Made by a program: the position numbers and the translations under genes
In this document: positions 976 to 14,014 of the stretch, piece by piece
Position numbering within the stretch: the first letter of the stretch is position 1
Layout: every line of letters starts with the position of its first letter
Source of the DNA: a virus
Virus record (IMG/VR): IMGVR_UViG_3300021090_000386
Location: 1-22,810 of that record
DNA length: 22,810 nucleotides
Strand: one strand, 5' to 3'
The notes under the pieces: model-generated
What the model was told of the DNA's origin: nothing
Database searches by the model: none
Seen by the model: only the letters and a program-made list of their open reading frames with translations

Positions 976-2856
976 ATGAGTGACACCGGGTCAAGGATTA
1001 CCCCGGAACACCGCGCTTACCTGAACCGCCACGCGATCACTGACGAAGTGATCGACCGCCACGGAGTCCGGTCCATTTCGGACCGTGACGAACTCCCCAG
1101 GAGTATCGCAGAACTGGCCTACTTCACGCCCGCTCCCGGGATTCTCTTCCCGGTCAGGATGCCGAACGGCAAGGACAGTTCCAGGTACCGGCCGGACAAC
1201 CCGGCACTGGACGGAGAAGGGCGAAAGGCCAAGTACATCGGGCCTGCCGGAGTGAGCACCGTCAACATGGTGCGTACCGGCCCGATCGTTCCGTCGTCGC
1301 TCAACGGGAAACCGGCCCACTTCATCAACATGGACGGCTTCGACAAGATCCTGTTCGTGGAGGGGAACAAGCAGGTCCTGGCGGCCGACTCCTACGCCCC
1401 GGGCGATTACGCGGTGATCGGAGTTCACGGATGCCGTGCATGGTCCGGCGCTGATTTCTCGTTCGTGAGCGGCCGTGACGTGTTCGTGGCGTTCGACTCG
1501 GATGTGTGGAACAAGTCCAACCCGGACGTTCCCGATGCCGCAGAGAAGTTCTCCGTGGAGCTGGTGGAGGCCGGGGCCGCATCTGTGCGGTTCGTATTCG
1601 TCCCTGGAGACCAGGGGACGGGCCTGGACGACGCCCTAGCCCTGATCGACCCCGGAGGCCGCACGGAGGCTCTCAAGAGCTGGCTCGAAGAAGCGGGACC
1701 GCTGACGCAGGAGAACGAGGGGGAGCCGTTCGACTACGACGGCCCCTATGAAGACCGTGTCAAGATCAAGGCCCGTGACCTGTACGTCAACCAGCGCGCT
1801 CGTGGCCTGGTGGACGACCGGATAGCCAGAGAGACCGGCCGGGCCGTGGACTGGGAGTCACGCGCTCACAACGGCGCTGACTGGCTGGACGTGAGCGAGC
1901 CGGAGCCGAAGCCGCTCTGGGGCACGCCGGACACGCCTCTCTGGCTTCCTGGGGAGTCGCTGACCATCGTCGGCCCTCCCAGTGTCGGCAAGTCCACACT
2001 GGCCCACGCGGTGATGTGGGGCGCGCTGGGGCTGACCCCGGACCTCCTTGACTTCCCGATCGAGGCCATGGAGGACGGCGGAATCCTGTACCTGGCCATG
2101 GACAGGCCGAAGCAGATCAAGCGCGCCATGGCCAGGTTCCTGCGGGCGCACCCCGACCGTCAGGACGAGATCACCACGGTTCTCCGTGAGCGGCTCACGA
2201 TCTGGGAGGGACCACTTCCCGGAGACCCGACGGCGGACAAACGGCTGTTGATCAGCATGGCCGAGAAGTTCGGCCGGACACGCATCGTCGTGGACTCGCT
2301 GAAGGACATCATCCCGAACGCCAGCGACGAAGCGAAGGCGGGCAGATACAACATGGCCCGTCAGGAGGCCCTGGCCGAAGGCTTCGAGTGGATCGAGCTG
2401 CACCACAACCGGAAGTCGGGGGCGGAGAACAAGGAGCCGAACACTCTTGACGACGTCTACGGCTCGCGGTGGATCACGGCCGGAGCCGGATCGGTCCTGT
2501 CCCTGTTCGGCCAGCCCGGTGACATCGTCCTGAAGCTGGCCCACCTCAAGCCGCTCGGGGAGCCGATCATGCCCACGCAAGTGGCGATCACCCGTATCTC
2601 GGGGGAGATGACCGTCTACGAGAAGACGACACCCCTGGACATCCTCAGGGCGTCAGGGGTTCAGGGCCTGACCGTCGAAGATGCGGCCCGGTCCATGTAC
2701 GGGGTTCTCGGGAACCGGAAGCTGACCCCGAACGAAGTTGAGAACACCCGGAACAAGCTCAACCGGATGGTCAGAGACGACCAGGCCGAGAAGCACCCGA
2801 AGGCCGAAGGCCCGGTCAGGTACCGGGTCAAGGACATCGAAAACCCGTGGTTATGA
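976..2856 (+). CDS. TOPRIM-helicase replication protein (bifunctional primase/helicase type)
   Basis: This is the probable phage replication initiator. I chose the ATG at 976 because AAAGGA precedes it; an in-frame ATG at 892 overlaps the XRE stop (ATGA) and would add 28 residues. In the 626-residue form, a TOPRIM-like module covers roughly residues 120-230, with the glutamate in ILFVEGNKQVL (about 129) and the acidic pair in VFVAFDSD (about 174-176). A RecA-like ATPase follows, with Walker A GPPSVGKST near 333-341, a Walker B-like RIVVDSLKDI near 436, and a histidine-rich ELHHNRKSG motif typical of RepA/AAA_25 hexameric helicases. The C-terminal 70 residues look like a winged-helix domain. 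TOPRIM-helicase fusions in this family prime and unwind DNA at the origin. A strongly structured repeat region follows directly. The last sense codon is TTA, rare in Streptomyces. Confidence 0.85.
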   Translation: MSDTGSRITPEHRAYLNRHAITDEVIDRHGVRSISDRDELPRSIAELAYFTPAPGILFPVRMPNGKDSSRYRPDNPALDGEGRKAKYIGPAGVSTVNMVRTGPIVPSSLNGKPAHFINMDGFDKILFVEGNKQVLAADSYAPGDYAVIGVHGCRAWSGADFSFVSGRDVFVAFDSDVWNKSNPDVPDAAEKFSVELVEAGAASVRFVFVPGDQGTGLDDALALIDPGGRTEALKSWLEEAGPLTQENEGEPFDYDGPYEDRVKIKARDLYVNQRARGLVDDRIARETGRAVDWESRAHNGADWLDVSEPEPKPLWGTPDTPLWLPGESLTIVGPPSVGKSTLAHAVMWGALGLTPDLLDFPIEAMEDGGILYLAMDRPKQIKRAMARFLRAHPDRQDEITTVLRERLTIWEGPLPGDPTADKRLLISMAEKFGRTRIVVDSLKDIIPNASDEAKAGRYNMARQEALAEGFEWIELHHNRKSGAENKEPNTLDDVYGSRWITAGAGSVLSLFGQPGDIVLKLAHLKPLGEPIMPTQVAITRISGEMTVYEKTTPLDILRASGVQGLTVEDAARSMYGVLGNRKLTPNEVENTRNKLNRMVRDDQAEKHPKAEGPVRYRVKDIENPWL

Positions 2857-3100
2857 GGGGGTTGGGAGGGGGTTGGGAGGGACCAACGGGCTCCCAACTC
2901 GTCCCAACTCCGATCAAGGAATCCCCAGGTCAGAGGCTCCCAACGGATTTCAGGGGCTATTTCCCAACTCGGCCACCAACTCAACCAACTCGATCAAGGG
3001 GCTTGCTGGTCAGGGGCCCCAACCCGTCTACCAACTCAACCAACCAGGCCATTCCAACTCCCCGACCCCCCTTAAAGGGGGAGGGGTTGGCGGTAAGGAT
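2857..3100. other. Candidate replication origin: G-quadruplex motif, CCAACTC repeats and hairpin
   Basis: This 250-base gene-free stretch follows the replication gene. Five G-runs at 2857-2881 separated by one- or two-base loops (GGGGGTTGGGA twice, then GGG) form a strong G-quadruplex motif. The heptamer CCAACTC occurs seven times (2894, 2904, 2964, 2976, 2985, 3031, 3054). An imperfect repeat with a period of about 80 bp is marked by CGATCAAGG at 2911 and 2991 and GGTCAG at 2928 and 3008. GTTGGGAG at 2872-2879 can pair with CTCCCAAC at 2891-2898. Direct repeats next to an initiator gene are typical of iteron-like origins. The assignment as origin is inference. Confidence 0.5.
3054..3090. repeat. 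GC-rich hairpin at the end of the repeat region
   Basis: A perfect core of CCCCCTT and AAGGGGG separated by one A (3067-3081) sits within a longer imperfect stem. CCAA plus CCCC on the left (from 3054) pairs with GGGG plus TTGG on the right (to 3090), with small bulges. It could be a single-strand initiation hairpin or a terminator separating the replication gene from the genes that follow. There is no T-run, so a classic intrinsic terminator is less likely. Confidence 0.5.
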
Positions 3101-3106
3101 CATGAA

Positions 3107-3370
3107 ATGACCGACCCGAAGACCCACCCAGAGATCATTCCCCAGCACTACCCGATGTGGGTCCACGAGTGGAGGCCGGGGCCGGGCGACGGGCACCACC
3201 GGTTCCTCCCGATCATCGGCTGGGTATGGCTGGACGGTCCTTACCTCCAACCCGTGGTCATCGCCGACACGGGGGCGCTCCCCTACGAGCGCGACGACGG
3301 AGACCAGGGCTGGGACATAGTCGATCAACGGTTCATGAATGAGTACGACCAAGAGGGGAAACGACCATGA
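3107..3370 (+). CDS. Hypothetical protein (87 aa)
   Basis: The ATG at 3107 follows an AAGGAT site. The frame is open upstream to 2738, but that extension reads through the repeat region and overlaps the replication gene, so it is rejected. The product starts MTDPKTHPEIIPQHYPMWV and is rich in W, Y, P and D, with several short beta-like segments (HRFLPIIGWVWLDGPYLQPVVIA) and an acidic C-terminal half (DGDQGWDIVDQRF). There is no membrane anchor or recognised motif. It overlaps the next gene by four bases (ATGA), indicating a two-gene coupled unit that could be transcribed with the replication gene. It is a real gene by coding character and junctions, but its function is unknown. Confidence 0.7.
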   Translation: MTDPKTHPEIIPQHYPMWVHEWRPGPGDGHHRFLPIIGWVWLDGPYLQPVVIADTGALPYERDDGDQGWDIVDQRFMNEYDQEGKRP

Positions 3371-3660
3371 GCGCACGGAAGACCAAGATGACGCTGGACG
3401 AGCACCGGGAGATGGGTCTGTACCTGGCCAGGGCCAACGATGAGCTGGTCGGCCGGTCGGTGACTATCAGTAACAGCAAGTCCAAGAGCGACCCCCGGGC
3501 CGGTAGGGTCGACCGATCCCTGAAGCGGGCCATCGACGGGCTACGACAGGCCCGGTCGGAGTTGGAGAACATGATGTTCGCGGACTATCCCGAGGAGACC
3601 CGGGGCCAGGACGCGCTTCAGGTCTACTACCCAACCCAGGTCATCCGTCAGGCGTCATGA
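3367..3660 (+). CDS. Hypothetical basic helical protein (97 aa)
   Basis: The gene starts at the ATG inside the ATGA overlap with the preceding gene, with a purine-rich GAGGGGAAACG site just upstream. The product begins MSARKTKMTLDEHREMGLYL and is strongly helical and charged. A second helical part follows (DRSLKRAIDGLRQARSELEN), then a short tail ending VIRQAS. I see no DNA-binding, catalytic or membrane motif and do not recognise the family. It is the last gene before the long structured intergenic stretch that precedes the terminase genes, so it probably closes the early/replication transcript. Confidence 0.72.
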   Translation: MSARKTKMTLDEHREMGLYLARANDELVGRSVTISNSKSKSDPRAGRVDRSLKRAIDGLRQARSELENMMFADYPEETRGQDALQVYYPTQVIRQAS

Positions 3661-3758
3661 CCACACCACTCCACCCATCAGCCCCCGGACCGATGCGGGT
3701 CGCTTCAGGCCCGCCTCGTTGTGTGACTTACCGTCGATGATCGGTGGCTTACCGCTTG

Positions 3759-3786
3759 GCGACTATGGCAGATCTGCCACAGTCGC
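3759..3786. repeat. 28-bp near-perfect palindrome
   Basis: The arms are GCGACT, one mismatched base, then TGGCAGA, meeting the reverse complement TCTGCCA, mismatch, AGTCGC. Only the pair 3765/3780 (A versus C) breaks the symmetry. A dyad of this length without a loop suggests a binding site for a dimeric protein or a nicking/cleavage site rather than a terminator. Position before the terminase genes favours a packaging or late-operator role (inference). Confidence 0.65.
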
Positions 3787-3790
3787 GAAT

Positions 3791-3818
3791 CGCTCCGTTA
3801 CAGCAGGGTCACGGAGTG
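3791..3818. repeat. Hairpin with 8-bp stem
   Basis: CGCTCCGT at 3791-3798 pairs with ACGGAGTG at 3811-3818 (one G-T wobble), leaving a 12-base loop. It begins four bases after the 28-bp palindrome, so the two form a compact structured block. Confidence 0.5.
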
Positions 3819-3859
3819 ATGTTGACCAGCGGGAAGACATCCGCGAACTGACCACCCCC

Positions 3860-3897
3860 ATCAGCCCCCGGCCGTTCACCACGGTCCGGGGGCTGAT
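3860..3897 (+). terminator. Strong hairpin, probable terminator without T-tract
   Basis: ATCAGCCCCCGG at 3860-3871 pairs perfectly with CCGGGGGCTGAT at 3886-3897, and CCG/CGG extends the stem inward past one bulged T. The loop is short. No T-run follows, which is common for actinobacterial terminators. It probably insulates the terminase operon from the replication transcript, or is part of the packaging site. Confidence 0.5.
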
Positions 3898-3945
3898 CCA
3901 CGTATCATCGGCTTGACGTAAGCGACCTGACATGAGGTGTTTTCC

Positions 3946-4416
3946 GTGGCCGGACCGATCGAGACGACCCAGGGCTACACAGTCAACCCCGCTACGGCCG
4001 TCCGTGACGCCAAAGCCGCACGGATGCGCTCCCGGTCGATGACCTACCAGCAGATCGGCGATGCTCTCGAGGTCACGAAACAGGCTGCGTGGGAGATGGT
4101 CGAACGCGCGATGAAGGAAGTCATCACAGAACCGGCCGAATCCGCCGTGGCGTTCGAGCTGCAGAAGCTTGACGCACAGGAGCAGGACATCCTGGAGAGG
4201 TTGGAGAAGCGGCACTTCGTCGTCTCCAATGGCCGTCTGATCAGCATCGGTGACCCTCCCCTCCCCCTGGAGGATGACGACTTCGCCCTACGGGCTCACG
4301 CCCTCCTGCTCCGCGTGGCGGAACGTCGTGCCAAGCTCCTGGGCCTGGACAGCGCCACGAAGCTGGACGTGTCCGGCGGCATGACGTACACGCTTCTCGG
4401 GGCCGACGACGTATGA
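3946..4416 (+). CDS. terS: Terminase small subunit (putative)
   Basis: The product should recognise phage DNA and deliver it to the large terminase for packaging. I chose the GTG at 3946, eight bases after an AGG; an in-frame GTG at 3937 is too close to that site. The 156-residue protein has a helix-turn-helix near its N-terminus (RSMTYQQIGDALEVTKQAAW, about residues 28-47). A long charged helix follows (FELQKLDAQEQDILERLEKR), then an acidic linker and a helical C-terminus with RVAERRAKLLGL, a motif common in actinophage small terminases and related HTH proteins. It ends in a four-base ATGA overlap with the large terminase gene, which strongly supports the assignment. Sequence similarity among small terminases is low, so the call rests on fold features and position. 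Confidence 0.8.
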   Translation: MAGPIETTQGYTVNPATAVRDAKAARMRSRSMTYQQIGDALEVTKQAAWEMVERAMKEVITEPAESAVAFELQKLDAQEQDILERLEKRHFVVSNGRLISIGDPPLPLEDDDFALRAHALLLRVAERRAKLLGLDSATKLDVSGGMTYTLLGADDV

Positions 4417-5729
4417 TCACCCACACCTACGGCCCGCGCGGGACCTGCAGAGAATTGATCACGAACAAGTCTCCCGCGATCTTGCTGAGCGGCCCAGCTG
4501 GGACCGGGAAATCCCGCGCGTGCCTGGAGAAGCTGATGCTGATCGCGCTGAAGTACCCCGGGTGCCGACTGCTGATCCTCCGGAAGACACTCGCGTCCCT
4601 GGGCTCTACCGCACTGGTGACCTGGCGTACCAAGGTCGCGCCGGAGGCTCTCAAGTCAGGAGAGGTCTACTTCTACGGTGGGTCGTCGGAGGAGGCTGCG
4701 CAGTACCGGTTCCGCAACGGGTCCACGATCACCGTTGGCGGGATGGACAAGGCCCAGAAAATAATGAGCTCGGAGTACGACGCCGCCTATATCCAGGAGG
4801 CCACGGAGCTGACCCCGAACGACTGGGAGATGATCAGCACCCGACTCCGTAACGGAGTCGTGCCGTACCAGCAGTTGATCGCCGACTGTAACCCGGACCG
4901 GCCCAACCACTGGCTTCACGAGAAGACCCGGACGGGCGAAGTCGTGATGCTCCACTCCCGGCATGAGGACAACCCGACCCTGTACCGTCCCGACGGCTCC
5001 CTGACGCCCTCTGGGGCGTCCTACATCTCCCGTCTGGACGCACTAACCGGCGTCCGCTTCCAACGCCTTAGGCGCGGTCTGTGGGTCGCAGCGGAGGGGC
5101 TGGTGTACGACGACTATGATCCGGCCGTCCACCTGATCGACCGCTTCGACATCCCCGACAGCTGGCCCCGGTACTGGGTGATCGACTTCGGGTTCACGAA
5201 CCCCTTCGTCTGCCAGTGGTGGGCGGAAGACCCGGACGGCAGGCTCTACCTCTACCGGGAGATCTACCGCACGCAGCGTCTTGTGGAGGACCATGCCAAA
5301 GATGTACTCGGCCAGGTTCAGAAGCGTGACGGTACCTGGAGGGAACCGAAGCCTGTGGCCGTCATCTGTGACCACGACGCCGAAGACCGGGCCACCTTCA
5401 CCCGGCACTCCGGTTTCTCCACCTCCCCCGCCAAGAAGGGCAAGACCGAGGGACTACAGGTCACCCAGGCCCGCTTCAAGGTCGCGAAGGATGGCAGGCC
5501 CCGGATCTTCTTCCTGCGGGACTCTCTGGTGAAGCGGGATCAGGCTCTGGTGGACGCCGGTAAGCCCACGTCCACCGTGGACGAGATCACGGGGTACGTC
5601 TGGCCCCAGGGCAAGACCGGGGACAAGGCGGAGGAACCGGTCAAAGAGGACGATCACGGAATGGACTGCGCCCGTTACATGGTCGCGTATCGTGACCTCA
5701 GGGGCCGTACACGATTGAGGTACCTATGA
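4413..5729 (+). CDS. terL: Terminase large subunit
   Basis: This is the ATP-driven DNA packaging motor and endonuclease (438 aa, normal for the family). The ATPase domain has Walker A GPAGTGKS at residues 27-34 and a Walker B-type segment YIQEATEL near 125-132 with its catalytic glutamate. The C-terminal RNase H-like nuclease domain begins RYWVIDFGFTNPF near 254 (catalytic Asp about 258). It continues with an acidic AVICDHDAEDR segment and ends with a conserved acidic EDDHGMDCARYMVAY motif near 412. The gene overlaps both neighbours by four bases (ATGA at each end), so it is translated as part of a tightly coupled terminase-membrane protein-portal unit. All motifs needed for activity are present and no truncation is seen. 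Confidence 0.96.
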   Translation: MITHTYGPRGTCRELITNKSPAILLSGPAGTGKSRACLEKLMLIALKYPGCRLLILRKTLASLGSTALVTWRTKVAPEALKSGEVYFYGGSSEEAAQYRFRNGSTITVGGMDKAQKIMSSEYDAAYIQEATELTPNDWEMISTRLRNGVVPYQQLIADCNPDRPNHWLHEKTRTGEVVMLHSRHEDNPTLYRPDGSLTPSGASYISRLDALTGVRFQRLRRGLWVAAEGLVYDDYDPAVHLIDRFDIPDSWPRYWVIDFGFTNPFVCQWWAEDPDGRLYLYREIYRTQRLVEDHAKDVLGQVQKRDGTWREPKPVAVICDHDAEDRATFTRHSGFSTSPAKKGKTEGLQVTQARFKVAKDGRPRIFFLRDSLVKRDQALVDAGKPTSTVDEITGYVWPQGKTGDKAEEPVKEDDHGMDCARYMVAYRDLRGRTRLRYL

Positions 5730-5980
5730 CCGTCATGGAAGCGTGGGCCACGGGTCGTCAGACCCGATCCCAGCGACGCGCCCGGAAGCCACTGCTCACC
5801 ATGCTGTTCACGCTGGCAGGCCGGTACCTTCCCCGGTGGATCACCGTACGGCGCTTCGCCACCTACGCGACGGCGTTCGGTCTCATCGACGCGGCGGCCT
5901 GGCAGTTCACCACCTGGTCCGGCCTTCTGGTCGCCGGTCTGTCCGTGCTGGCCCTCGATTACATGAGCGGTGACGAATGA
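5726..5980 (+). CDS. Small membrane protein between terminase and portal (84 aa)
   Basis: The ATG overlaps the terminase stop and the TGA overlaps the portal start, both as ATGA, so the gene is fully embedded in the coupled operon. The N-terminal half is strongly basic (RQTRSQRRARKPL) followed by a moderately hydrophobic stretch. The C-terminal half is hydrophobic, with ATYATAFGLIDAAAWQFTTW and GLLVAGLSVLALDYM forming one or two membrane segments, and it ends in acidic SGDE. Small membrane proteins at this place occur in other actinophages, but their job is not established. A role in anchoring procapsid assembly or packaging to the membrane is possible but unsupported. The alternative rightward frame at 5743-5973 is an arginine/histidine-rich shadow. 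Confidence 0.8.
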   Translation: MTVMEAWATGRQTRSQRRARKPLLTMLFTLAGRYLPRWITVRRFATYATAFGLIDAAAWQFTTWSGLLVAGLSVLALDYMSGDE

Positions 5981-7185
5981 GGTCCCTCCGTTCCGTGCTC
6001 GCGAAGACGCCCGTACCGTTCGCTCCGGCTGTCCGGTCACTCTTCGGCGCTCCCGTGGAGCAGGCGTCCATGGTCCAGCAGATGACCGCCATGGGCACCG
6101 TGGGGACACTGTTCGCCATGGTGGACGCGCTGTCCGAGAACACCGCACAGGCCGAATGGAAGCTGTGGGCGAAGTCCGCCAGCGGCCGGACCGAGGACCG
6201 TACCGAGGTCACGCGGCATCTGTCGCTGAAGATCTGGAACAAGCCCAACCAGTTCTATACACGGCAGGAGTTCGTTCAGACCTTCCAGCAGCATCGGGAC
6301 CTCACCGGAGAGGCGTGGTGGCTGGTCGGCAGGGATCGCAGAGCTCCGTTCCCCATGGAGCTGTGGCCGGTCCGCCCCGACCGGATGGACGTCGTGAGGC
6401 ACCCGACGGAGTTCCTGACCGGTTATGTCTACACCGGACCGGAGGGTGAGCGCGTTCCGCTCAACCGCGACGAAGTGATTCAGCTCCGGCGGCCGAACCC
6501 CCTCGATCCTTATCGCGGGATGGGGCCGGTACAGAGCATCCTCGCTGACCTCGACTCCGTCCGGTACTCCGCCGAGTGGAACCGGAACTTCTTCAGGAAC
6601 TCAGCCGAACCTGGCGGGATCATCGAAGTGCCCGAGAGCCTGGGGGACGATGAGTTCTACCAGCTTCGGGAGCGGTGGAACGAGCAGCACCGGGGCGTGG
6701 CACAAGCCCACAGAGTGGCCATCCTGGAGCACGGCAAGTGGGTGGACCGGAAGTTCAGCCAGCGGGACATGCAGTTCGCAGAACTTCGGGGTGTGAGTGA
6801 GGCCGTCCTGATGAAGGCGTTCCGGTTCCCGGTCCCGATGCTGGGCATCAGCGAGGACGTCAACCGGGCGAACGCGGACGCCGCTGAAGTGGTGTTCGCG
6901 CGGAGGCTGATCAAACCCCGCCTGGAGGCGATCAAGCAGGCGCTCAACAATGACTTCCTTCCCCTCTTCGGGAGCACTGGACAGGGCGTGGAGTTCGACT
7001 TCTGCGATCCGGTGCCCGAAGACCTGGAGCTGTCGGCGAAGCTCCTGACGGCCCGTTCAGACGCGGCCAAGGCACTGCGTGACGCGGGGTGGAACCCCGA
7101 CGACATCCTCAGCGCCGTGGGCCTGCCGGAGATGACCTATGATTCACCTCAGGTACCAGCGCAGACAGGAGCGTTCGGTGGGTAG
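5977..7185 (+). CDS. Portal protein (HK97-type family)
   Basis: The product forms the dodecameric ring at the capsid vertex through which DNA enters and leaves. It has 402 residues, typical of the HK97-type siphovirus portal family. Family-like features include ENTAQAEWKLWAKS near the N-terminus, the GEAWWLVGRDRR segment, GYVYTGPEGERVPLNRDEVI followed by LRRPNPLDPYRGMGPVQSIL, and FRFPVPMLGISEDVNRANAD leading into the EVVFARRLIKPRLEAIKQAL helix. It starts in an ATGA overlap with the membrane-protein gene. Its last codons lie in the first copy of the 56-bp direct repeat. A ribosome binding site (AGGAG) and a GTG overlapping the stop there look like the original start of the protease gene, now a 10-codon remnant. 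The portal frame itself is complete. Confidence 0.95.
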   Translation: MRSLRSVLAKTPVPFAPAVRSLFGAPVEQASMVQQMTAMGTVGTLFAMVDALSENTAQAEWKLWAKSASGRTEDRTEVTRHLSLKIWNKPNQFYTRQEFVQTFQQHRDLTGEAWWLVGRDRRAPFPMELWPVRPDRMDVVRHPTEFLTGYVYTGPEGERVPLNRDEVIQLRRPNPLDPYRGMGPVQSILADLDSVRYSAEWNRNFFRNSAEPGGIIEVPESLGDDEFYQLRERWNEQHRGVAQAHRVAILEHGKWVDRKFSQRDMQFAELRGVSEAVLMKAFRFPVPMLGISEDVNRANADAAEVVFARRLIKPRLEAIKQALNNDFLPLFGSTGQGVEFDFCDPVPEDLELSAKLLTARSDAAKALRDAGWNPDDILSAVGLPEMTYDSPQVPAQTGAFGG

Positions 7186-7206
7186 AGATCACTTCAAGGT
7201 CGCGCG
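7151..7206 (+). repeat. 56-bp perfect direct repeat, copy 1 (portal 3' end)
   Basis: Identical over 56 bases to 7320-7375, starting AGGTACCAGCGCAGACAGGA and ending CAAGGTCGCGCG. It covers the last 11 codons plus stop of the portal gene and a copy of the protease start region (AGGAG at 7167-7171, GTG at 7178). From that GTG only ten codons are open before TAA at 7208. The bases outside both copies differ (C versus G on the left, A versus G on the right). Confidence 0.97.
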
Positions 7207-7319
7207 ATAAACAGCGCGTGGTCAAGCCGCTACCAGATCCGACTGAGAGGAATTCCGCTCAGTCGGAGACTGTGACCAAGCGGGCACCGCAAGCTACCTC
7301 TCTCGCCGGTAAGTGGGTG
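7207..7319 (+). other. 113-bp insert between the direct repeats
   Basis: This sequence lies between the two 56-bp repeats and separates portal and protease, genes that otherwise would overlap by eight bases. It has a stop codon (TAA at 7208-7210) for the copy-1 frame, then stays open in the protease frame from a GTG at 7218. It carries a 30-bp near-palindrome at 7238-7267, and the left junction has CGCGC/GCGCG arms (7201-7218). No protein-like or RNA-gene signature was recognised. It could be a remnant of an inserted element or an att-type scar. Confidence 0.7.
7238..7267. repeat. 30-bp near-perfect palindrome inside the insert
   Basis: TCCGACTGAG, one mismatched A, then GGAATTCC at the centre, mismatched G, and CTCAGTCGGA. 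Only 7248/7257 break the symmetry. It could act as a binding site for a dimeric recombinase or regulator, or form a hairpin in RNA. Confidence 0.7.
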
Positions 7320-7375
7320 AGGTACCAGCGCAGACAGGAGCGTTCGGTGGGTAGAGATCACTTCAAGGTCGCGCG
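7320..7375 (+). repeat. 56-bp perfect direct repeat, copy 2 (protease 5' end)
   Basis: Identical to 7151-7206, displaced by 169 bp. This copy contains the AGGAG ribosome binding site (7336-7340) and GTG (7347) that most likely start the present protease gene, so the duplication supplied a working translation start. Confidence 0.97.
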
Positions 7376-8069
7376 GCCGGTGGCACGTCTCCGCGAGGGT
7401 CGGACCGACTGGTACACGATCAAGAACGAAGCCGGTACGTCCGAGATCATGATCTATGACGAGATCGGGTACTGGGCCGTCACCGCCAGCGACTTCGTCA
7501 GGGAGCTGTCCGGCCTCAGGACGGACAAGATCGACCTACACCTCAACTCCCCTGGCGGCGAAGTGTTCGACGGCATCGCCATCTACCAGGCGCTGAAGAA
7601 CCACAAGGCCGAGGTCACGGTGTACGTGGACTCGCTGGCGGCCTCGATCGCCTCCGTCATCGCGATGTCCGGCGACCGCGTCATCATGGCGCGAAACTCC
7701 ACGATGATGATCCATGAGGGCTCCGGCCTCTGCGTGGGCAACGCGGCCGACATGAAAGAGATGTCCGCCCTGCTGGACAAGACCAGCGACAACATCGCGA
7801 GCATCTACGCGGACCGGGCCGGAGGCACAAGCGCCAGCTGGCGTAAGCGCATGACGGCTGAGACGTGGTATTCCGCAGATGAGGCCGTGGCGGCGGGCCT
7901 GGCTGATGAAGTCCAGGGTAAGGGGACCGAGCAGTCCAACACCTGGGACCTGTCCATCTTCAACTACTCCGGCCGGAGCGAAGCCCCGGAACCGGAGATC
8001 GTGAAATCACCTACGTTCAACTGGGACCCGGAAGAGTTCCGGCGTCAAGCCTTGAGGGAGGCTGAGTAA
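7347..8069 (+). CDS. ClpP-like capsid maturation protease (S14 family)
   Basis: This serine protease is expected to cleave the capsid delta domain and scaffold during head maturation. I prefer GTG 7347 because AGGAG lies six bases upstream. In-frame GTG codons at 7218, 7272 and 7317 would add up to 43 residues encoded by the insert and repeat. The 240-residue form has the ClpP fold signatures: IDLHLNSPGGEVFDGIAIYQ (substrate-binding strand and glycine loop), YVDSLAASIASVIAMSG with the nucleophilic serine in LAAS, and the MMIHEGSG histidine. ETWYSADEAVAAGLADEV contains the likely acidic residue region and the typical end of the domain. About 40 variable residues follow. The stop shares an A with the capsid start (TAATG). 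The gene lies between portal and capsid, as in HK97-like phages. Confidence 0.93.
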   Translation: MGRDHFKVARPVARLREGRTDWYTIKNEAGTSEIMIYDEIGYWAVTASDFVRELSGLRTDKIDLHLNSPGGEVFDGIAIYQALKNHKAEVTVYVDSLAASIASVIAMSGDRVIMARNSTMMIHEGSGLCVGNAADMKEMSALLDKTSDNIASIYADRAGGTSASWRKRMTAETWYSADEAVAAGLADEVQGKGTEQSNTWDLSIFNYSGRSEAPEPEIVKSPTFNWDPEEFRRQALREAE

Positions 8070-13326: not shown

Positions 13327-13580
13327 TGATCACTATCCAGAGCCCAATCGTGGCTGTCTACACCGTGGGTGAAAAAGAAGCGGTGGAGGTTCGGCCCGTT
13401 CTTGCCTGGGACGAGTCTGGCCAGCCCTATGTTCTGGGTGAACGGTCACTCGTCCTGGCCTCTTCCCTCCCGGGGTTCACGAGCGTCCAGCTCCCAGGTA
13501 ATGAGCTGAAGGACGAAGGCCCGCGACCCGTACCGGTCAGCACCCGGCCGGAGCGCAAGAGGATTGAGGAACGGCGATGA
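13326..13580 (+). CDS. Hypothetical tail-region protein (84 aa)
   Basis: The start overlaps the tail-tube stop (TAATG) and the stop overlaps the next start (ATGA), so the gene is clearly embedded in the operon. The N-terminal half is a small beta unit (IVAVYTVGEKEAVEVRPVLA, then DESGQPYVLGERSLVLASSL). The C-terminal third is proline- and arginine-rich and highly charged, ending RPERKRIEERR, and is probably disordered. There is no membrane segment or known motif, and the family is not recognised. The position between two tail-tube paralogues suggests a minor tail component or assembly factor (inference). Confidence 0.72.
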   Translation: MITIQSPIVAVYTVGEKEAVEVRPVLAWDESGQPYVLGERSLVLASSLPGFTSVQLPGNELKDEGPRPVPVSTRPERKRIEERR

Positions 13581-14014
13581 TCGACCGAACCGTTCAGCCC
13601 CTGATGCCCGCTGGATTCTACAAGACGTACCAGGTCAAGATGCCGCTCAGTACCCACTGGGTTCCGGCCACCTGTGAGGACGTCGGGTGTGCCGACTATC
13701 TGAACGGCTGGCGGGTCAGGGTAGAGGGACTCACGCCTGAGATGCTCCACACGGCCCGCACGTCCGGCCGGGCGTACAAAGAGACCAGTGTCGCCCAGGG
13801 AGAGACGTGGCTGGTCTACAGCGCCGGTCAGCCATGCTTCAGGGCCAGCACCCACAGACAGCCAGCGGAGCGGCCCGGTATCTACATCGTCCGGGGCGGA
13901 GACTTCCGGGGTAACCCACGGGGTGACCGCCGGATTCACAGGAACGGCCAGGAATGGACTGAGGACTTCTCGGAACATCTGGGCAAGATCAGCGATGAGA
14001 TCAAGAAGGGTTAG
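13577..14014 (+). CDS. Hypothetical tail-region protein with CxxxxC motif (145 aa)
   Basis: The ATG lies in an ATGA overlap with the preceding gene. The product begins MIDRTVQPLMPAGFYKTYQV and has a PATCEDVGCADYLNGWRVRV segment with a closely spaced cysteine pair, an YKETSVAQGETWLVYSAGQP strand region, a third cysteine in GQPCFRAST, and a basic central part rich in R and G (GGDFRGNPRGDRRIHRNGQE). It ends in a charged helix. Proteins with the C-x4-C-x2-YLNGW pattern near the tail-tube genes appear familiar from actinophages, but I know no assigned function. A metal-binding site formed by the cysteines and histidines is possible. It precedes the second tail-tube gene by three bases. Confidence 0.75.
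   Translation: MIDRTVQPLMPAGFYKTYQVKMPLSTHWVPATCEDVGCADYLNGWRVRVEGLTPEMLHTARTSGRAYKETSVAQGETWLVYSAGQPCFRASTHRQPAERPGIYIVRGGDFRGNPRGDRRIHRNGQEWTEDFSEHLGKISDEIKKG

Follow-up and report, generated by a model that had tools for sequence, protein, structure and literature searches.

The 169 bp of additional DNA at the portal/protease junction of this phage appear to result, with a probability that we place at roughly 0.55, from insertion of a non-coding palindromic element of ~100 bp together with duplication of a gene start; two such insertions would have occurred in the genome, each kept where the start was duplicated. The window, that is, the whole stretch of DNA analyzed, measures 22,810 bp and is a linear viral contig of the IMG/VR kind. 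Repeat-insert-repeat layouts are present at the starts of both the protease gene and the TerS gene, the TerS site is empty in a relative, and the two inserts have a palindrome architecture in common. Judged from their sequences, they appear to be copies of one element family.

The portal/protease junction

Direct comparison of 7151-7206 (R1) with 7320-7375 (R2) gave 56 identities in 56 positions, at a spacing of 169 and with a 113-bp insert between the copies, so that the original prediction was right in all its coordinates; an exact 56-mer repeat is expected by chance in a 22,810-bp record at ~4e-24. The repeat holds AGGAG (7167-7171 and 7336-7340) and GTG (7178-7180 and 7347-7349), with the portal stop TAG at 7183-7185 in R1, and portal end, ribosome binding site and protease start are thus all located where they had been claimed. 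Deletion of 169 bp in silico produced the predicted 8-nt overlap of portal stop and protease start, GTGGGTAG. The features are collected in Table 1.

Table 1. Positions of genes, repeats, inserts and palindromes in the window
Feature	Positions	Strand	Description
Upstream repeat remnant (D1)	3658..3694	+	~80 bp lost between 3688 and 3689, by comparison with L077
TerS-start insert	3695..3848	+	Missing in G402/L078
Element copy 2	3726..3832	-	~107 nt; orientation opposite to copy 1
28-bp dyad GCGACTATGGCAGATCTGCCACAGTCGC	3759..3786	.	Within element copy 2
Downstream repeat (D2)	3849..3950	+	Terminator-like hairpin, leader, RBS, GTG 3937, 14 nt of TerS
TerS-like gene	3937..4416	+	Just before the large terminase; PHROG 645
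Portal gene	5977..7185	+	PF04860, 8e-57; phrog_2662; last 11 codons and stop within R1
Repeat copy 1 (R1)	7151..7206	+	Portal end, RBS AGGAG, GTG, 29 nt of protease sequence
10-codon frame MGRDHFKVAR-TAA	7178..7210	+	Opened by GTG of R1; TAA 7208-7210; sequence reading
113-bp insert at protease start	7207..7319	+	Between R1 and R2
Element copy 1	7214..7314	+	CGCGTGGTCAA ... CGGTAAGT, ~101 nt; probably related to reverse complement of 3726-3832
28-bp dyad CCGACTGAGAGGAATTCCGCTCAGTCGG	7239..7266	.	Within element copy 1
Repeat copy 2 (R2)	7320..7375	+	Identical to R1; gives the protease its RBS and start
ClpP-like head maturation protease	7347..8069	+	PF00574, 6e-32; GTG start within R2, by homology to Dagobah and L002

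The longest mechanical open reading frame of the protease begins within the insert, at GTG 7218; homology places the true start at 7347 and not at 7218. In Streptomyces phage Dagobah and in locus L002, the protease N-termini align from their own start codons to the GTG of the repeat, with shuffle p values of < 0.0002 and 0.0002, respectively. The short frame opened by R1 is a candidate coupled minipeptide, which stops 8 nt ahead of GTG 7218; the latter is in frame with the protease, and coupled reinitiation could possibly yield an extended protease from that codon. By codon usage, the 113-bp insert does not look coding: more than 95% of real genes outscore its only open frame, and there is no protein family match. 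A phage search with the insert also returned no match.

In most relatives a long MuF-like tail is fused to the portal; in those without this tail, portal stop and protease start overlap or abut, and repeats are missing. Because these tail-less relatives are directly coupled or abutting, and because the Dagobah and L002 starts fit GTG 7347, the single-copy junction is probably ancestral, as judged from an empty state known at this site from distant relatives only. The same two lines of evidence back the earlier claim that the present state is derived. Comparison of the junction in related phages bore this out in part: distant relatives are without the repeat, and no close relative with this junction was found among the records, the best portal match being <= 64% at the amino acid level. 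In the close relatives G402-G404, the portal/protease module is a different one (50-57% at the amino acid level), which rules them out as examples of an empty protease junction.

Two other origins of the extra DNA were tried and rejected. An old, longer protease N-terminus like that of L009 or L027, of which the insert and R2 would be the remains, gave p values of 0.03-0.08, weaker than the Dagobah/L002 fit; and a 13-bp match, CGCGTGGTCAAGC, to the MuF-like portal tail is explained by common RVVK codons. In locus L011, a single 1699-aa frame (1493-6592) comprises portal, MuF-like region, an intein-like stretch (PF14890, E 1.5e-7, slightly under the family cut-off) and ClpP-like protease. A joined frame of this type is also found in L052, Streptomyces alboflavus, and the MuF region of L036 has a similar intein-like stretch. 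L020 and L024 have an open frame of ~90 aa between portal and protease (VSVDKPRTLRI... in L020), which is missing in most other relatives.

A second insert at the TerS start

A repeat-insert-repeat arrangement that restores a gene start recurs at a second essential gene. The gene concerned is read here as the small terminase subunit (TerS) from its position just before the large terminase and from its match to PHROG 645, a family labelled "Rnase E" in that library. A TerS query retrieved further contigs from the small phage family to which the window belongs, namely L077 (96% at the amino acid level), L078, which is G402 (89%), L079, which is G403 (74%), and L080, which is G404 (66%); in whole-record alignment, G402-G404 are circularly permuted relatives of the window, 22-23 kb in size. 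At the TerS start of L077, two repeat copies (78/84 identical, spacing 258) surround an insert with a palindrome within it, and the duplicated stretch runs from a terminator-like hairpin through the ribosome binding site and GTG to the first 14 nt of TerS. G402/L078 has one copy and no insert, that is, an empty site. The insert of L077 is also present in the window, where its upstream repeat copy has lost an internal segment between two CCGG strings; the right junction of the insert differs between the two contigs. This independent, older case with its empty-site relative strengthens the claim that something entered the protease junction and duplicated it. Among the short-range repeats in 1.3 Mb of related loci, only those at these two sites include a duplicated gene start, overlap with gene starts having been assessed by eye.

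The second case also bears on whether the protease arrangement could be an assembly artefact, with the assembler having placed the second R copy and the insert. The perfect 56-bp identity is close to the k-mer length of short-read assemblers, and the record is a linear contig, as an artefact of this kind would have it. We judge it unlikely all the same: L077 is a separate contig that has a like layout with diverged copies, so the arrangement exists in nature; both genes are left intact; and the insert resembles the second insert of the same genome.

The TerS dyads of the window (3759-3786) and L077 (3168-3195) are identical when one of them is read on the other strand. The difference is as if a 28-bp core had flipped, and two mutations would give the same result. 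The possibility that the TerS insert derives from part of an integrase (L100, L102, DGKSYDERGLKRRA) was rejected, the matches being at chance level (E 0.002-0.004 per genome over 393 genomes) and the remaining ones lying in unrelated genes.

The region upstream of TerS is hypervariable in this phage family. In L079, ~5536-5959, at the same TerS-upstream spot as the insert of the window, holds five copies of CCGGAGTCACCGTGAGAATCTCTT(C/G)AGGTG or near variants, each then followed by a different sequence and several forming hairpins, as well as an antisense helix-turn-helix fragment. L080/G404 (13356-13640 of the oriented contig) contains direct and inverted repeats of AAGGGTGCA / TGCACCCTTGATC upstream of TerS, and these repeats are another type. 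Elsewhere in the window, 274-604 is a 331-bp insertion relative to L077, G402 and G403, which corresponds closely to one minus-strand gene of ~111 aa with no significant family match.

The palindromic element

Among the loopless palindromes of the record, the strongest (7238-7267) lies in the protease insert and the second strongest (3759-3786) upstream of TerS. Both dyads have the form CGACT-N16-AGTCG, which occurs twice in the window against 0.05 expected and was not found in 730 kb of other loci. Matches to the palindrome pattern in other phages were confined to the arms, with flanks that have no similarity.

Over ~100 nt, the protease insert can be aligned to the TerS insert in reverse complement, and the two share CGC(G)TGGTCAA at one end and TCG(C/A)CGGTAAGT at the other. 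Dinucleotide shuffles placed this alignment between 0/3000 and p 0.016 across four scoring schemes (p ~0.0003-0.02), and none of the 542 control segments from the window reached the insert-insert score. When the arms were anchored on the dyads, the right arm gave 0/5000 shuffles and the left p 0.033, while the alternative pairing of arms was at chance (0.87-0.89). The aligned dyads of the two sites show five two-sided changes with pairing kept, pair counts that are inflated by the selection of the dyads as palindromes, and a free MAFFT alignment did not place them on each other. As single strands, both elements fold with z values of ~-3.3 to -3.7. The evidence that the two inserts are related (homologous) is good but not beyond doubt, the similarity being modest and scoring-dependent; the elements differ at about a third of positions.

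It is rather unlikely, although more probable than the other rivals, that the two sites record unrelated accidents, with illegitimate recombination at each start, arbitrary filler DNA and a chance resemblance of the inserts. The variable duplication length would fit template switching or end joining, neither donor nor third copy was found, the insert similarity weakens to the upper p value under strict scoring, and the codon usage of the only open frame gives the protease insert the look of non-coding filler. Such accidents do not readily account for the common dyad architecture, for the right arm common to both inserts, for the control segments, or for the like targets both times, a few codons past the start of an essential late gene.

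A maintained control device is less probable still. The dyad would then be an operator or a hairpin by which translation of the protease is kept apart from that of the portal and the ratio of the two is set, in keeping with the strong hairpin between the two starts, the R1 minipeptide that ends just before an in-frame GTG, and the dyad pairing kept through two-sided changes. However, a repeat this perfect points to a recent event, the portal/protease pair of relatives is without the insert, no regulator is linked to the dyad, and the arrangement is seen in one genome only.

No third copy of the element was found in 1.3 Mb of loci, nor in phages, plasmids or samples of actinobacterial genomes, and the insert ends have no terminal inverted repeats, the palindrome being internal. 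Nothing was found in Rfam and no tRNA was detected, permissive settings included; a 22-nt tRNA-Gln-like match in Pseudomonas phages is at chance level.

Origin of the inserts and comparison with known systems

The repeat had also been proposed as an att core for a tyrosine recombinase, and this part of the original prediction was not borne out. PF00589 and PF00239 genes were absent from five records, the present one (G000) and four relatives (G401-G404), which are possibly incomplete and for which controls were positive. The halves of the 56-mer had no exact match in viral contigs. The suggested search of host genomes and mobile elements returned no convincing match in plasmids and, among 393 Streptomyces genomes, a set outside which the host may lie, only chance-level matches of 36-40 nt in 4/393. 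The stretches duplicated at the protease and TerS sites are of unrelated sequence and different length. Site-specific integration, with R serving a tyrosine or serine recombinase as att core and with the insert as an element that is minimal or has decayed, would fit direct repeats around extra DNA that is missing in relatives, and the dyad may be divided into 11 + 6 + 11 bp in the manner of a recombinase core. It also has a parallel in mycobacteriophage LRRHood, where 1.35 kb of extra DNA with four genes lies between 29-bp direct repeats that are single-copy in its relatives (PMC3029335). Yet the dyad lies in the insert and not in R, and with no recombinase gene, no further copy of R and unrelated duplications of unequal length, we consider integration very improbable.

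MITEs and other bacterial palindromic repeats are ~100 bp long, non-coding and palindrome-forming. The present inserts differ from MITEs: they have neither terminal inverted repeats, the palindrome being internal, nor a fixed short target duplication (56 vs ~84-110 bp), nor a high copy number, and no autonomous relative turned up in the sequences searched. Mycobacterial interspersed repetitive units (MIRUs), found in many mycobacteria, are short repeats at coupled start codons, coupled to the gene with -4 nt spacing, where the host gene is still expressed (PMC12548453). The likeness lies in a short repeat at a gene start with little harm to expression; here, by contrast, 56 to ~110 bp are duplicated, two inserts are known, and at the protease start, where the duplication is 56 bp, no insert ORF has a 4-nt overlap onto the start. 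The LRRHood insertion is similar in its extra DNA between direct repeats that are single-copy in relatives, and differs from the ~100 bp of non-coding palindromic DNA found here at gene starts and at two sites. MPME1, one of the ultra-small mycobacteriophage mobile elements (MPMEs), of 439 bp with IR-L and IR-R and 6 bp added at its left end (PMC3029335), likewise is a very small mobile element of actinobacterial phages, but the 113-bp insert is without such ends and without the 6-bp rule. In anatomy, none of MIRU, the LRRHood insertion and MPME matches the insert.

We propose that a ~100-bp non-coding element, centered on a 28-bp palindrome, was inserted 29 nt into the protease frame and that portal end, ribosome binding site and protease start, 56 bp in all, were duplicated in the same event, after which R1 would end the portal and R2 would start the protease. 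An earlier insertion, 14 nt into the TerS frame and with duplication of ~84-110 bp, would have brought in a related, oppositely oriented element. Neither classical integration nor classical transposition fits, since there is no recombinase, there are no terminal inverted repeats and the duplications are unequal in length. The layout is that of an illegitimate duplication, with repeat-insert-repeat order, abrupt ends and single-copy relatives (distant ones only at the protease). Insertion and duplication may have been a single event in which the element was captured during replication or end repair, for example by template switching with a jump backwards or by end joining of linear phage DNA. 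Selection would retain only those insertions in which the start of the essential gene is restored, and the element itself might favor capture, for example as a hairpin.

The identity of the R copies indicates that the protease event is recent, and since the elements differ at about a third of positions while the R copies are identical, the TerS copy was not the donor. The donor was presumably another, unseen copy; in the sequences searched, only the distant relation to the TerS insert was seen. Tentatively, this small phage family may harbor an undescribed class of ultra-small (~100 bp), gene-free, palindrome-centered mobile element. It is conceivable that elements of this class enter the frames of essential late genes after a few codons and duplicate the whole translation start, and so do little harm.

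There is hardly any space for insertions in dense phage operons. If a tiny element forces the duplication of a start or carries it along, this would illustrate how essential operons can take up non-coding DNA and still work, and also how short hairpin-bearing intergenic regions come to lie between genes that formerly overlapped. The TerS sites, filled, part-deleted and empty, form a ready natural series.
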